Part shown: positions 8,851 to 14,201 of the stretch, one piece after another
Position numbering within the stretch: the stretch's first letter is position 1
How the letters are laid out: every line of letters begins with the position of its first letter
Source of the DNA: Deltaproteobacteria bacterium
GTDB lineage: Bacteria > Myxococcota > XYA12-FULL-58-9
Length of the DNA: 64,000 bases
Direction of reading: 5' to 3'
NCBI GenBank assembly: GCA_016218825.1
Contig: JACRCV010000082.1
Location: 1 to 64,000, forward strand
Made by a program: the position numbers and the translations under genes
Notes under the pieces: model-generated
Databases searched by the model: none
What the model was told of the DNA's origin: nothing
Seen by the model: only the letters and a program-made list of their open reading frames with translations

Positions 8851-9588
8851 TCACTTCGGAGCGGGCGGGGCGCCCTTCTCGGGCACGAACATCGGCTCGT
8901 CGGGCGCCGGGGCGACGTCGGCGGCCGGGGCCGGCTTGCCGATCACCCGTCTCTCGCCGGTGCGCCGTACCCCGGTGGCGCTGGTCTCGCGCGTCACCTC
9001 GAGCTGGTCGAGGCGCGCGACGAGCTCGTCCATCGCGGTCGACAACAAGCCGGACAGCGCCCGCGCCGCCTGGGCGAAGCTGCGCTCCGGCACCGGGCGG
9101 CGTTCGTCGAAGTTGAGGTTCAACAAGGTCTCGCCGTTCGAGTAGCGGCTGAGCGCCAACGACAGCGACAGGTGCGCGAACCAGACGTCGCCGGAGTCGT
9201 AGACCTCGATGGCGTGCAGATCGCCGCCGAGGATGTAGTCGGGGCGAAGCTCGCCGAGCTCGCGACCGACCGCGGTGAAGCGCTCGGCGTCCAGCAGCGA
9301 GCGCGCGATCATGTCGCTCACCATGCGGTTGGGCTTCACCGCCCAGACGTGGGAGTCGCTGTATTGCAGCTCGTAGGGGTTGCGGCGCAACACGATCTGG
9401 AACTTCTCGTAGATGGTGTCGGCGTCCAGGGTGCGGACCCGCAACAGGCCGTCGATCGCCGGGGTGCCGGTCTTGGCCGACGACAAGCCGTGGAGCACGA
9501 AGTAGCTGCGCTCCGGGGCGGCTGACCCGAAGAGCGAGCAGGCGGCGAGCGACAGGCAGCAGGCGAGACAGCCGGCGACACGGATCAT
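8851..9588 (-). CDS. ABC-type transport auxiliary lipoprotein, PqiC-like
   Basis: The 245-residue protein has a lipoprotein signal (LSLAAC, lipidated C17) followed by a domain typical of the PqiC/YmbA-type auxiliary lipoproteins. Characteristic segments are RSYFVLHGL near the mature N terminus, a central MVSDMIARSLLDAERFTAV motif, and a DYILGGDLHAIEVYDSG strand pair. It is probably anchored to the inner leaflet of the outer membrane and acts with the MCE protein encoded just upstream. It starts 3 bp after the mlaD stop and is the last gene of the MCE operon. The C terminus is Pro/Ala-rich. Confidence 0.82.
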   Translation of the reverse strand: MIRVAGCLACCLSLAACSLFGSAAPERSYFVLHGLSSAKTGTPAIDGLLRVRTLDADTIYEKFQIVLRRNPYELQYSDSHVWAVKPNRMVSDMIARSLLDAERFTAVGRELGELRPDYILGGDLHAIEVYDSGDVWFAHLSLSLALSRYSNGETLLNLNFDERRPVPERSFAQAARALSGLLSTAMDELVARLDQLEVTRETSATGVRRTGERRVIGKPAPAADVAPAPDEPMFVPEKGAPPAPK

Positions 9589-9591
9589 GGT

Positions 9592-10617
9592 CTACTCTTT
9601 GCTTCGCAGCAGGACCGACGGGTCCTGGGCGATGACACGGGAGAACTCGCGCAGATCTTCGGCGGCCTGGCGAATCGAGCTCAGCGCCGCGGTGAAGTCC
9701 TCGCGCCCGGCGCGCACCGTGACGTCGACGTCCTCGAGCAGGCGGCTCAGGCCGGTCAACGCCACCTGCATGTCGTCGATGGCGCGGCCGAGCTCGCGGC
9801 TGGAGATCCGCGTGTCGATGCTGTCGGCGGCCCGCCGCACCGAGGCCACCGCCTCGGCGACGTCGTCGGGGTCGAGCTTCGACAACGGCCGGCGCGCGTC
9901 CTTGATCGTGGTGCGGGCCTCCTCGAGGGTGGCGATGACCTCGTGGCGCACCGCCTTGATCGAGGTCTCGCCTTCGCCGGTCAAGGTGGCGATGTGCTCG
10001 CTTGCCCGCGCCACGCCGGCGAGCGCCTCCTTGAAGGGCTGGCGGTTGGTCTCCAAGAATCGATCGACCTCGTTGGCGAGCGCGGTCGTCGACTCGATGA
10101 GCTTCTCGGCGCGGACCCGGTTTTCGTCCCGGGTCCAGGCGGCGAGCTGATTGGCGACGATCTCGATCTTCAGGGCGACGTCCTGCGCCTGACCCGTAAT
10201 GCGGTCGACCAGCGACTGACCCGGAATCAAGCGCGAGCCGGGTGGCAGTCGGGCGCTGCGCGGATCGCCGCCGGCGAGGTTGATGGTCTTCAGGCCGGTG
10301 AGCCCCGAGGAGTCGAGGACGGCGCGGGTGCCCTCGTAGAGGACGGTCGAGGGATCGAGGGCCAGGGTCACCTCGATGGCGCTGGCGTCGTCGCCTGCTA
10401 TCCGCATGCTCTCGACCCGACCGATGCGCAGGCCGTGGTAGCGCACCGAGGCGCTGCGCTCCAGGCCGCCGATGTCCTCGGTGAAGCGCACGGTGTAGAT
10501 GTCGCGGCGCTCCCAGAGCTTGAGGCCGGCGAGCGACACGATCGCACCGCCCAAGATCACCAGGCCGGAGAGCACGAAGGCGCCGAGGCGCGCTTTCTCG
10601 GAGCGGCTGAGGTTCAT
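9592..10617 (-). CDS. mlaD: MlaD/MCE-family substrate-binding protein
   Basis: The 341-residue protein has one N-terminal membrane helix (residues ~11-30, GAFVLSGLVILGGAIVSLAG) and one MCE domain (~38-125, with RYHGLRIGRVESM and TGLKTINLAGG-type loops). About 200 residues of helical C-terminal region follow. MCE proteins form hexamers that bind lipids in the periplasm between an inner-membrane ABC transporter and the outer membrane. The C-terminal helix is longer than in E. coli MlaD and could form a helical needle or reach the lipoprotein partner. The ATG overlaps the stop of the ATPase gene (ATGA), showing tight coupling. Confidence 0.9.
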   Translation of the reverse strand: MNLSRSEKARLGAFVLSGLVILGGAIVSLAGLKLWERRDIYTVRFTEDIGGLERSASVRYHGLRIGRVESMRIAGDDASAIEVTLALDPSTVLYEGTRAVLDSSGLTGLKTINLAGGDPRSARLPPGSRLIPGQSLVDRITGQAQDVALKIEIVANQLAAWTRDENRVRAEKLIESTTALANEVDRFLETNRQPFKEALAGVARASEHIATLTGEGETSIKAVRHEVIATLEEARTTIKDARRPLSKLDPDDVAEAVASVRRAADSIDTRISSRELGRAIDDMQVALTGLSRLLEDVDVTVRAGREDFTAALSSIRQAAEDLREFSRVIAQDPSVLLRSKE

Positions 10618-11417
10618 GCCCGACCCCCGCGCTGCAACGCTTCGAGCACCGAGCCGGCGCCGTCGGCGCCGAGCTTGCCGACGCGGTTGAAGAACGCGAC
10701 GATCTCCGGCCGGTCCATCCGTTTCACCTCGGCGAGCGGGCCGGTCGCTACGACTCTGCCCGCCGCGAGCATGGTCACGTGACTCGCGATGCTGTCAATG
10801 CTCGCCAGCTCATGGGTGACGACGACGATGGACATGCCGAACCTTTCGTTGAGGCTCAAGATCAAGCGATCCAAGTCCGCCGCGGTGACCGGATCGAGGC
10901 CGGCGGACGGCTCGTCACAGAACAACACCTCGGGATCCAAGGCCATCGCCCGCGCCAACGCCGCGCGCTTGCGCATGCCGCCGGAGAGCTGCGGCGGCGT
11001 CAGGTGCAGCGCCTGAAGCAGGCCCACCTGCGCCACCTTCATCAAGACGATCTCGCGCACGATGGCGGCCGACAGGTCCGGGGCCCGCTCCCGGAGCGGC
11101 AGCGCGACGTTGTCGAACAGCGACAACGAGTTGATCAGCGCCCCGCCTTGAAACAGCACGCCGATGCGCTGCAGCACCCGCTCCCACTCCGGCTCGTCGG
11201 CGCTCGCCTGGTCGACGCCCAACAGGCGCACGCTCCCCGCGGCCGGCCGCAACAGGCCGATGATGTGCCTCAACAGCGTGCTCTTGCCGCACCCCGAGCC
11301 ACCGACGATGACGTGCACCTCACCGCGCCGAACCTCGAGGTCGACGCCGTGGAGCACCTCGGTGTCGGCGTAACGGGCGACCAGGCCGCGGACTTCGACG
11401 CTCAACGGGTGGGTCAC
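10614..11417 (-). CDS. mlaF: MlaF-like ABC transporter ATP-binding protein
   Basis: This is the ATPase of the MCE lipid transporter, 267 residues. Walker A is GGSGCGKST (residues ~39-47), the ABC signature LSGGMRKRAALARA, Walker B VLFCDEPSAGLDP, and the switch H is in VVTHEL. The LSGGMRKR signature is typical of the MlaF/Mkl subfamily. A GTG 18 bases upstream would overlap the mlaE stop. The GTG at 11417 has AGGAG with a 7-base spacer and is preferred. It sits between mlaE and mlaD, overlapping mlaD by 4 bp. Confidence 0.93.
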   Translation of the reverse strand: MTHPLSVEVRGLVARYADTEVLHGVDLEVRRGEVHVIVGGSGCGKSTLLRHIIGLLRPAAGSVRLLGVDQASADEPEWERVLQRIGVLFQGGALINSLSLFDNVALPLRERAPDLSAAIVREIVLMKVAQVGLLQALHLTPPQLSGGMRKRAALARAMALDPEVLFCDEPSAGLDPVTAADLDRLILSLNERFGMSIVVVTHELASIDSIASHVTMLAAGRVVATGPLAEVKRMDRPEIVAFFNRVGKLGADGAGSVLEALQRGGRA

Positions 11418-11427
11418 GGGCGCGCTC

Positions 11428-12486
11428 CTAGCCACCGAAGTAGAAGATCATGCTGCAGATCGCGTCGGCGACGATCACCGCGAAGATGCTGGCGACGACG
11501 CTGGTGGTGGTGCTGCGGCCGACGGCGTCGGCGCCGCCGCGGGTACGCATGCCGCAGGTCGCGCCGATCGTCACGATGAGCTGCGCGAACAGCACGCTCT
11601 TGAAGAGGCCGGTCAGCAGATCTTTGACCAGCAGCGCCTGCTGCATCCGCGCCAAGAACGCCCCCGGGCCGACGCCGAGATAGGTGATCGCGACCAGGAA
11701 GCCGCCGCCGATGCCGAGGGCGTCGGCGAGCACCGTCACCAGGGGCTGGGTGATGCTGATGGCGATGAACTTCGGCAGCACCAGGAAGCGGACCGGATGC
11801 AGCCCGAGGGTGCGGATGGCGTCGACCTCTTCGGTGATCGTCATCGTCGCGAGCTCGGCGGCGACCGCCGACCCCGAGCGACCGGCGACCACCACCGCCG
11901 CCATCAGCGGCCCGAGCTCGCGGGTCAAAGACACGCTGATCAGGTCGGCGACGAAGATGTTGGCGCCGAACTGCCTGAGCTGCAGCGCGCTCTGCAGCGC
12001 GATGGTGCCGCCGACCAGGAAGGCGATGAGCCCGACGACGCCGAGCGCCTTCGAGCCCATGCTCGCCATCTCGAAGGCCACCTGCGACCAGCGGATGCCC
12101 CGGCCGCGAAACAACCCGGCGACGCAGAACCAGGCGACGTCGGCGCACAGCACCAGGTAGTCGAGCGCCGCCTCGCGGGCGACGAGCGCCCACTCGCCGA
12201 CGCGCTCGGTGACGCTCTGCTCCACCGGGGCCGCCGGGGTGCGGTCGACGAACGGGAACAGCGCCAGGGTCTTTACGACCTCGGGGCGGGGATGGGTGAT
12301 CTGCAGCCGCTCCCCGGCGCTCATCCGGCGTTGCAGGCCGGCGAGCAGCGCGACGCCGGCGCTGTCGAGCTCGCACACGTCCCCGAGGTCGATGCTGACC
12401 GATTCGCGGCGCCCCAGGGCGGCGTCGATCGCGGCGCCGAGCGCGGCCACCTCGTGACGGGTCAGGCGGGCAGGAAGTTTCAGCAT
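11428..12486 (-). CDS. mlaE: MlaE permease fused to an N-terminal STAS (MlaB-like) domain
   Basis: A 352-residue fusion. Residues ~1-80 form a STAS domain (ESVSIDLGDVCELDSAGVAL, the MlaB-type core). Residues ~100-352 are the MlaE permease, with several membrane helices and the motifs VGLIAFLVGGTIALQSA, FVADLISVSLTRELGPLMAA, VVAGRSGSAVAAELATM and TEEVDAIRTLG. E. coli encodes MlaB separately; here regulator and permease are one chain. The ATG shares one base with the stop of the upstream barrel gene (TGATG). The whole cluster is packed with overlaps of 1-4 bp or gaps up to 10 bp. Confidence 0.93.
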   Translation of the reverse strand: MLKLPARLTRHEVAALGAAIDAALGRRESVSIDLGDVCELDSAGVALLAGLQRRMSAGERLQITHPRPEVVKTLALFPFVDRTPAAPVEQSVTERVGEWALVAREAALDYLVLCADVAWFCVAGLFRGRGIRWSQVAFEMASMGSKALGVVGLIAFLVGGTIALQSALQLRQFGANIFVADLISVSLTRELGPLMAAVVVAGRSGSAVAAELATMTITEEVDAIRTLGLHPVRFLVLPKFIAISITQPLVTVLADALGIGGGFLVAITYLGVGPGAFLARMQQALLVKDLLTGLFKSVLFAQLIVTIGATCGMRTRGGADAVGRSTTTSVVASIFAVIVADAICSMIFYFGG

Positions 12487-14201
12487 CACAAGAGCTCGAA
12501 GCTGAAGCGCAACAGGACATCCTGCTCCAGCCGGTCGTCTTTGGAGAGTGAGCGGTCGCGCAAGAAACGGGCGACGTAGTTCAAGCTGACGTAGCTCGTG
12601 AGCTTGATCGCCAACGTGCCCTCGAGCTCGAGGACCGCGTTCTCGAGCTCGTCGGAGGGCAGCAGCGAATCGGCCTCGACGTTGATGAGCACCCAGCGGG
12701 TGATGCGCGCCACCGCGACCACGGTGGCCTCGAGCCCGTATTGGCTGCTGGACGGCACCAGGGTGTAGCGCAGCGGATCGGCGTACTCCGGGCTCGCCTG
12801 CTCCAAGAGCCCGTTGGTGATCCGATGCCGGGCGCCGAAGCCGAGGCGCACCGAGGTCTCGCCGAAGATGGCCTTGAAGACCCGGACGTTGAGGCCCAGG
12901 CCCTCCTTGACCGAGGTGAAGCCGAACGACTTCGAGAGCCGCAGCCGATTGACGTTGGTCGCCTCGCGCACCAAGTCGCCCGTGGCGCTCTCGATGCGGA
13001 CGTTGCGCGGCGTGCCCGTGGAGCCGTCGCTGCTCGCGTAGTTGAAGGTCCGGTAGCTCGGCAGCAGGTTGGTCTCGCCGGAGCCGCGCAAATACGGCCC
13101 GAGCCACGGCGTCAGGCGGTAGACGTAGAGCACGTCCAGATCCATCCGGTCCTGGCTCTTCTGCAGCGGCTGGCCGGGGGCCTTGTACTGTCCTTCCTCG
13201 ATCTGCAGCTGCAGCACGAGGGGGTTGCCGAAGATCTCGGCGCTCACCCGGCCGTCGGTGAACGCCCGCGCCGCGTACGCCTTGCCGAGCGCGGCGTCGG
13301 TGCTGCCGGGGACGTTCTGGCGCGCGTTCAAGCTCAGGTCGCCACCCAACACCAAGACCGACCAGAGCGCGCCGGCGTGCGGTTGAAAGACCTCGTCCCC
13401 CGGGACCTCGCCGCCGCCCTTGAACTCGCCGGTGTCGGCGCTCACCACCAAGAGCACGTGGCTGAGGTGTGCGGGGAGCAAGCGCACGGTCACGAAGTCG
13501 CGACGCGCGCGATAGCTCTCGCCGACGCGGACGATCTTGTAGAGGCCGGGGCGCAACACCCAAGTCGTCACCGGCTCGCCGGCCTGCTCGTTGGAGCCGA
13601 AGCCGATGCCGTAGTACTCGCGGTTGTCGACGCGGATGATCTCGTACGACTGGCGGACGCTCGACAGCTGCTCGTCGACCACGTGCACTGCGATCCCCGA
13701 CCAGGTCACCGGCAGCACCGTGGTGAACAGCTCGCGCACCGACACCTGGGTGCGGAAGCGCTGCTCCTCGGTGCCCGAGCCGATGTGCACGGTGTAGGTG
13801 CCGGGCAACAGCACGATCCTCTTGCCCGTCGTGCCCTCGCCGACCTTGTCGCCGCCGTGCCACACCGAGACCGGCGGCTCGTCGAGAGGGTTGGTCATCG
13901 ACGGCACGAACAATGCCCCCTTGCCGAAGGGCACGAAGGTCGTGTCCCGGTCGAGCTGCGCCTGCACCGTGCCCGCCGCCCAGTCCCGCGGACGCGACAG
14001 CGGCTCGGGCATCGCGGCGGGCTCGTCCGGCGCCGTCGTCGGCGGCGCTGCTGCCGGTGTCGGTGGCGCTTCCGGCGTTGCGGCCGCCGGGGTGTCGGTC
14101 ACCTCCGGCATCGGCGGCGGTGACTCGGTTTCGACCCGGGCCGGCGGAGCTTCCGCGGCGATCACCGCGGCAAATGCGACCAGTGGATAGAGAGCGCCCA
14201 T
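12486..14201 (-). CDS. secreted protein with predicted C-terminal outer-membrane beta-barrel, first gene of MCE operon
   Basis: About 571 residues of unknown family. A hydrophobic signal (ALYPLVAFAAVIAAEA) is followed by a Pro/Ala/Thr-rich linker (~20-75) and a mixed domain with short beta strands (RIVLLPGTYTVHIG resembles PEGA/Ig-like turns). The C-terminal half has alternating polar/hydrophobic strands joined by charged turns (LDVLYVYRLTPWLGPYLRG, LGLNVRVFKAIFGETSVRL, YVSLNYVARFL), ending LLRFSFELL. That is the look of an outer-membrane barrel. A frame-extending GTG lies 24 bases upstream; the ATG at 14201 gives a proper signal peptide. Its stop overlaps mlaE, so it belongs to the lipid-transport operon. 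Barrel prediction and role are inference. Confidence 0.7.
   Translation of the reverse strand: MGALYPLVAFAAVIAAEAPPARVETESPPPMPEVTDTPAAATPEAPPTPAAAPPTTAPDEPAAMPEPLSRPRDWAAGTVQAQLDRDTTFVPFGKGALFVPSMTNPLDEPPVSVWHGGDKVGEGTTGKRIVLLPGTYTVHIGSGTEEQRFRTQVSVRELFTTVLPVTWSGIAVHVVDEQLSSVRQSYEIIRVDNREYYGIGFGSNEQAGEPVTTWVLRPGLYKIVRVGESYRARRDFVTVRLLPAHLSHVLLVVSADTGEFKGGGEVPGDEVFQPHAGALWSVLVLGGDLSLNARQNVPGSTDAALGKAYAARAFTDGRVSAEIFGNPLVLQLQIEEGQYKAPGQPLQKSQDRMDLDVLYVYRLTPWLGPYLRGSGETNLLPSYRTFNYASSDGSTGTPRNVRIESATGDLVREATNVNRLRLSKSFGFTSVKEGLGLNVRVFKAIFGETSVRLGFGARHRITNGLLEQASPEYADPLRYTLVPSSSQYGLEATVVAVARITRWVLINVEADSLLPSDELENAVLELEGTLAIKLTSYVSLNYVARFLRDRSLSKDDRLEQDVLLRFSFELL

Follow-up and report, generated by a model that had tools for sequence, protein, structure and literature searches.

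A candidate outer-membrane end piece, encoded as a separate barrel gene, in an Mpc-type MCE operon of a Myxococcota genome

We consider a five-gene operon in a 64,000-nucleotide stretch of DNA from a Deltaproteobacteria bacterium of the phylum Myxococcota (assembly GCA_016218825.1, contig JACRCV010000082.1, positions 1 to 64,000 of the forward strand), called the window below, and with it the question of what forms the outer-membrane end of MCE bridges. All five genes lie on the minus strand, from 14201 to 8851, and encode, from the first to the last, a predicted outer-membrane barrel protein (P0001), a STAS-MlaE fusion, an MlaF-type ATPase, an MlaD and a PqiC-like lipoprotein (Table 1). Adjacent genes overlap or are 3 nt apart: the barrel and STAS-MlaE genes share one base (TGATG), the STAS-MlaE and MlaF genes share 8 bases and the MlaF and MlaD genes 4 bases, and the gap of 3 nt separates the MlaD gene from the lipoprotein gene. 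The five tightly packed genes are as the original prediction had placed them, and the Pfam matches fit the four MCE-type products. The C-terminal half of the MlaD is read from the sequence as long helices. A sigma-70-like promoter was looked for at the operon and none stood out.

Table 1. Genes and protein parts of the operon, with window coordinates, strand and the basis of each assignment
Feature	Coordinates	Strand	Basis
Outer-membrane barrel protein, 571 aa, first gene of the operon	12486..14201	-	Barrel by structure prediction; no Pfam/NCBIfam match
Putative signal peptide, residues 1-18	14148..14201	-	By inspection; basic n-region clear in homologues such as L029, not here
Pro/Ala-rich disordered linker, residues 19-72	13986..14147	-	AlphaFold2 pLDDT mostly 33-52
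Two beta-sandwich domains, residues ~90-268	13398..13934	-	AlphaFold2, again in L065; periplasmic placement inferred
Predicted C-terminal barrel, residues 279-571: 12 membrane-type strands and a polar hairpin	12489..13367	-	AlphaFold2, Foldseek
STAS-MlaE fusion permease, 352 aa	11428..12486	-	Pfam PF02405 7.9e-68, PF13466 (STAS_2) 2e-14
MlaF-type ATPase, 273 aa	10614..11435	-	Pfam ABC_tran
MlaD, 341 aa: N-terminal transmembrane helix, one MCE domain, no barrel	9592..10617	-	PF02470 2.8e-14, residues 41-116
PqiC-like lipoprotein, 245 aa, lipobox LAAC	8851..9588	-	ABC_trans_aux PF03886 3.7e-11

Full-length homologues of the barrel protein are present in 15 of the 58 relatives that were searched, the window genome included, with the others 37-63% identical, and all 15 adjoin operon genes; in one case the gene is split across two contigs (L037/L038). 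A wider scan was made with one genome per species and with search motifs in the N-terminal domains, so that MCE genes played no part in the selection. The 39 loci obtained come from at least eight phyla (Myxococcota, Gemmatimonadota, KSB1, Calditrichota, Eisenbacteria, Fibrobacterota, Raymondbacteria and Cloacimonadota), from further metagenome-assembled genomes (MAGs) and from one MAG labelled Verrucomicrobiia; the relatives and the scan loci overlap, several loci being from the same genomes. The barrel gene adjoins another gene of the operon in 38 of the 39 loci, and the remaining one lies at a contig end. Three gene orders occur, Bar-BE-F-D-Lip, BE-F-D-Lip-Bar and D-Lip-Bar-BE-F (barrel, STAS-MlaE, MlaF, MlaD and lipoprotein), all of them cyclic permutations of one. 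Moreover, the pairwise distances of the barrel are correlated with those of STAS-MlaE (Mantel r 0.91) and of MlaD (0.87) over 30 loci, with p 0.001. The original prediction had tied the barrel to MCE genes, and the full-length homologues are indeed found beside operon genes and not apart from them.

The same prediction had read a barrel into the 571-residue protein, and structure prediction agrees, both for this protein and for a distant homologue. With AlphaFold2 on P0001 (15 sequences), a predicted local distance difference test score (pLDDT) of 76 was obtained, with two beta-sandwich domains at about residues 90-268 followed by 12 long strands at residues 279-570. With AlphaFold2 on L065 (60 sequences), in which the barrel is fused to the lipoprotein, the pLDDT was 89.4, and the model shows, besides the lipoprotein domain (residues 27-194), both beta-sandwich domains and the barrel again, with a polar hairpin in addition. 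The prediction of a barrel at the C terminus of two distant members of the family supports the assignment. In Foldseek searches the barrel part matches the outer-membrane barrels NalP, EstA, OmpG, NanC and FapF, and the lipoprotein domain of L065 matches E. coli PqiC (8Q2C) with TMt 0.79; PDB sequence searches with the family profiles gave chance matches only or none. It is also noted that conserved residues alternate along the strands (R452/G454/G456/R458 and G489/E491/T493), as would be expected from a constraint on one face of the barrel.

In seven loci (L052, L054, L058, L063, L065, L067 and L074) the lipoprotein and the barrel form one open frame without a stop. All six of the fusions that were scanned pass the PF03886 cut-off, and no second signal sequence was seen on inspection of their linkers. 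As six of the fusions group together on the barrel tree and L052 stands apart, there were probably about two fusion events. Proteins that are fused usually work as one unit, and the fusions speak further for a barrel that belongs to the outer-membrane end of the transporter. Since the fusion fixes the ratio of lipoprotein to barrel at 1:1, an octameric lipoprotein ring of the kind that PqiC makes, if formed, would give a ring of barrels. One of the fused genes, L067, is that of the MAG labelled Verrucomicrobiia; it lies on a 3.6-kb contig and groups with the Myxococcota-like fusions, and the contig may be mis-binned.

It had been stated that the barrel protein belongs to no recognised family. 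This holds insofar as P0001 has no Pfam or NCBIfam match even at E<1, with the qualification that relatives of the barrel half score weakly to DUF3078 or DUF481. The 58 genomes also hold eight shorter relatives that match the C-terminal half only; an alignment of six of these eight, compared with the barrel half by hhalign, gave a probability of 100% and an E value of 2e-42 over the whole barrel. Both the full-length and the shorter groups score weakly to DUF3078 (PF11276), and some score to DUF481 (PF04338). The gathering score of DUF3078 is not reached: P0001 has no match, the best relatives have E values of about 1e-5, and for L074 the score is 23.5, with the cut-off at 25. The stand-alone barrel proteins (L039-L046, L020 and L021) are about 320-375 residues long, are weakly DUF3078-like and lie in unrelated gene neighbourhoods, and no operon genes were found near the stand-alone relatives in the stretches inspected. 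The idea that these DUF3078-like relatives are MCE partners was therefore rejected. Only the full-length architecture, in which two sandwich domains are combined with a barrel, is specific to the operon.

The other four genes resemble a described system, the Mla-Pqi chimeric (Mpc) system MpcEFDA of Brucella abortus, which has a STAS-MlaE, an MlaF, a 331-residue MlaD with a helical extension and, last, a PqiC-like lipoprotein (PMC12436622). In the window, likewise, STAS is fused to MlaE, the MlaD is elongated, with a single MCE domain and no barrel, and a PqiC-like lipoprotein closes the E-F-D-A order; the likeness is one of gene content and order, and the proteobacterial operons compared are plasmid operons. 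The three proteobacterial operons inspected, of Azoarcus, Azospirillum and Ruegeria, have exactly these four genes in the same order and no adjoining barrel gene. A four-gene operon of the same kind, without the barrel, is present on contig 7 of G006 (L133:3832-7324), a relative from the taxonomic order to which the window genome belongs; elsewhere, G006 carries a stand-alone relative of the barrel (L041). Since four-gene operons without the barrel exist, the barrel gene is an addition to an Mpc-type operon.

Neither MlaC nor MlaA is encoded within the operon, which is thus not a canonical six-part Mla system with its MlaC and MlaA partners. This absence had been pointed out from the sequence alone and it stands, but it is not special to the operon: MlaA (PF04333) was not found in any of the 58 relatives, the E. 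coli control matching, and MlaC (PF05494) occurs three times elsewhere in the window genome, on contigs 33, 27 (L088) and 15 (L089). Because the other four genes match Mpc, the absence of both proteins is expected for the type. The MlaC-family protein on contig 33 (L087:1068-5712) comes after genes for an MMPL transporter and a TolC-like outer-membrane efflux protein and is not in an MlaE operon.

Based on these data, we consider it likely that the products of the operon make up an Mpc-type MCE lipid transporter spanning the envelope, with an added, dedicated outer-membrane barrel as its end piece. STAS-MlaE and MlaF would form the inner-membrane ABC transporter that powers or gates the lipid movement, the MlaD ring with its long helices would make a tube across the periplasm, and the PqiC-like lipoprotein would cap this tube beneath the outer membrane. 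The barrel would be the integral outer-membrane end, with its two beta-sandwich domains hanging into the periplasm to meet the lipoprotein ring, which could be held on, or open into, a set of outer-membrane barrels. We infer the physical complex, the outer-membrane location, the MlaD tube, the lipid cargo and its direction and the ATP-driven movement from work on the Mla, Pqi, Mpc and Veillonella systems. As the pore of a 12-strand barrel is narrow, docking or lateral exchange would be as likely as passage through the lumen. More tentatively, and with less confidence than we place in the transporter as a whole, the lipoprotein and the barrel might form a hitherto unrecognised translocon, in which a PqiC-like toroid bears a ring of barrels. 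It would move lipids to or from the outer membrane and would take the place of MlaA-porin or MlaD-fused barrels at the outer end of MCE bridges in Myxococcota and FCB-related (Fibrobacteres, Chlorobi and Bacteroidetes) phyla. E. coli PqiC is an octameric toroid (PMC10897342). The original prediction of a barrel as the outer-membrane end of the transporter is supported by the conserved linkage, the modelled barrel and the in-frame lipoprotein fusions.

One different explanation would be that the barrel is a known part rearranged, namely the C-terminal barrel of a Veillonella-type MlaD split into a gene of its own. The MlaD of Veillonella parvula carries a C-terminal 10-strand barrel, in a system with no MlaA, MlaC or lipoprotein, and the same role has been proposed for that barrel (PMC10665443); Grasekamp et al. 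report the MlaD-fused barrel in a minority of bacteria and its absence from FCB and from PVC (Planctomycetes, Verrucomicrobia and Chlamydiae), and suggest that unidentified proteins might be needed to form a barrel (PMC10665443). The window MlaD lacks a barrel, as a split would leave it. A second MCE operon of the window genome, on contig 79 (L086:5292-8460), consists of MlaE, MlaF and a 522-residue MlaD, the C-terminal region of which (about 190 residues) resembles, as read from its sequence, the Veillonella-type fused barrel. The homology of the separate barrel with this fused region, in the same genome and its relatives, was nevertheless rejected, as hhalign gave a probability of 1.5% over 37 columns; moreover, the separate barrel has about 290 residues and two extra domains, against about 190 residues in the fused region. 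Relatives of the 522-residue MlaD occur in 49 of the 58 genomes, some of these matches being weak or confined to MCE. Of the 15 genomes with the separate barrel, 12 have this second MCE type as well, so that neither system simply stands in for the other. A split-off barrel is thus very improbable.

It could also be argued that the operon is an importer, rather than a system of phospholipid trafficking, and the barrel its channel for taking up a hydrophobic compound from outside, similar to FadL/TodX at the outer membrane or to mycobacterial Mce4, since the weak Foldseek matches include FadL, TodX and COG4313 channels and since the second MCE system of the same genome, whose barrel is apparently fused, may leave the window operon with a specialised cargo. 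These matches, however, are generic for barrels, with about 10% identity and TMt of 0.25-0.47, the neighbouring genes in the window, read from the sequence as those of a glycosyltransferase, a DsbA-like protein and a major facilitator superfamily (MFS) transporter, give no hint of a catabolic substrate, and the spread over many phyla of differing lifestyles fits an envelope function better than import; we therefore regard an importer as unlikely. Still less probable is the reading of the barrel as an ordinary porin or a structural protein of the outer membrane, with no part in transport and simply transcribed together with the other genes. It would accommodate the unlinked stand-alone members of the wider barrel family and the existence of four-gene operons without the barrel, but not readily the adjacency of the full-length homologues to operon genes across many phyla in three orders, nor the repeated fusion of the barrel to the lipoprotein of the operon.

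Several points nevertheless weigh against the barrel as a dedicated end piece of an Mpc-type transporter. Related four-gene operons do without it, so that the barrel is not needed in every system of the type, and, with its stand-alone relatives lying away from MCE genes, a barrel of such kind is not MCE-specific by itself. A Gemmatimonadetes locus (L068:7818-11278, genome J002) has only Bar-BE-F, MlaD and the lipoprotein not being detected nearby. The co-divergence of the barrel with MlaE could be given by shared vertical descent alone. The putative signal peptide of P0001 is without a clear basic n-region, and the predicted template modelling (pTM) scores are modest, 0.54 for P0001 and 0.56 for L065, because of which the relative placement of the domains is not fixed by the models. 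In L068, two genes that are read from sequence as response-regulator/GGDEF-like follow MlaF.

The four other genes are the known Mpc parts list, and the novelty lies in the barrel; literature searches, which covered open-licence papers only, turned up no MCE operon described as having a gene of its own for a barrel. This gives a candidate gene for the outer-membrane end in Myxococcota and several FCB-related phyla, the MlaD-fused barrel being reported absent from FCB (PMC10665443). Since the candidate regularly belongs to the operon and, in some loci, is joined to the lipoprotein in one protein, the question of the outer-membrane end becomes testable.

Compared with known systems, the operon is closest in its parts to Mpc of Brucella, with which it shares STAS-MlaE, MlaF, a long-helix MlaD of about 330-340 residues and the lipoprotein, in the same E-F-D-A order and with no MlaC or MlaA in the operon, and from which it differs by the barrel gene, which is not described for Mpc in the available part of that source (PMC12436622). 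With E. coli PqiABC it has in common a lipoprotein partner of PqiC fold (8Q2C), whereas it has MlaE/MlaF and a single-MCE MlaD in place of PqiA/PqiB, and the barrel in addition. The DUF3078/DUF481 proteins show weak but repeated matches to the barrel half; by contrast, these relatives are without the two N-terminal domains and do not lie beside MCE genes. Like Veillonella MlaEFD, finally, the operon would provide, by our proposal, an MCE bridge without MlaA or MlaC that ends in an outer-membrane barrel, but here the barrel is encoded by a separate gene, is of another family, carries two extra domains and has a PqiC-like partner.

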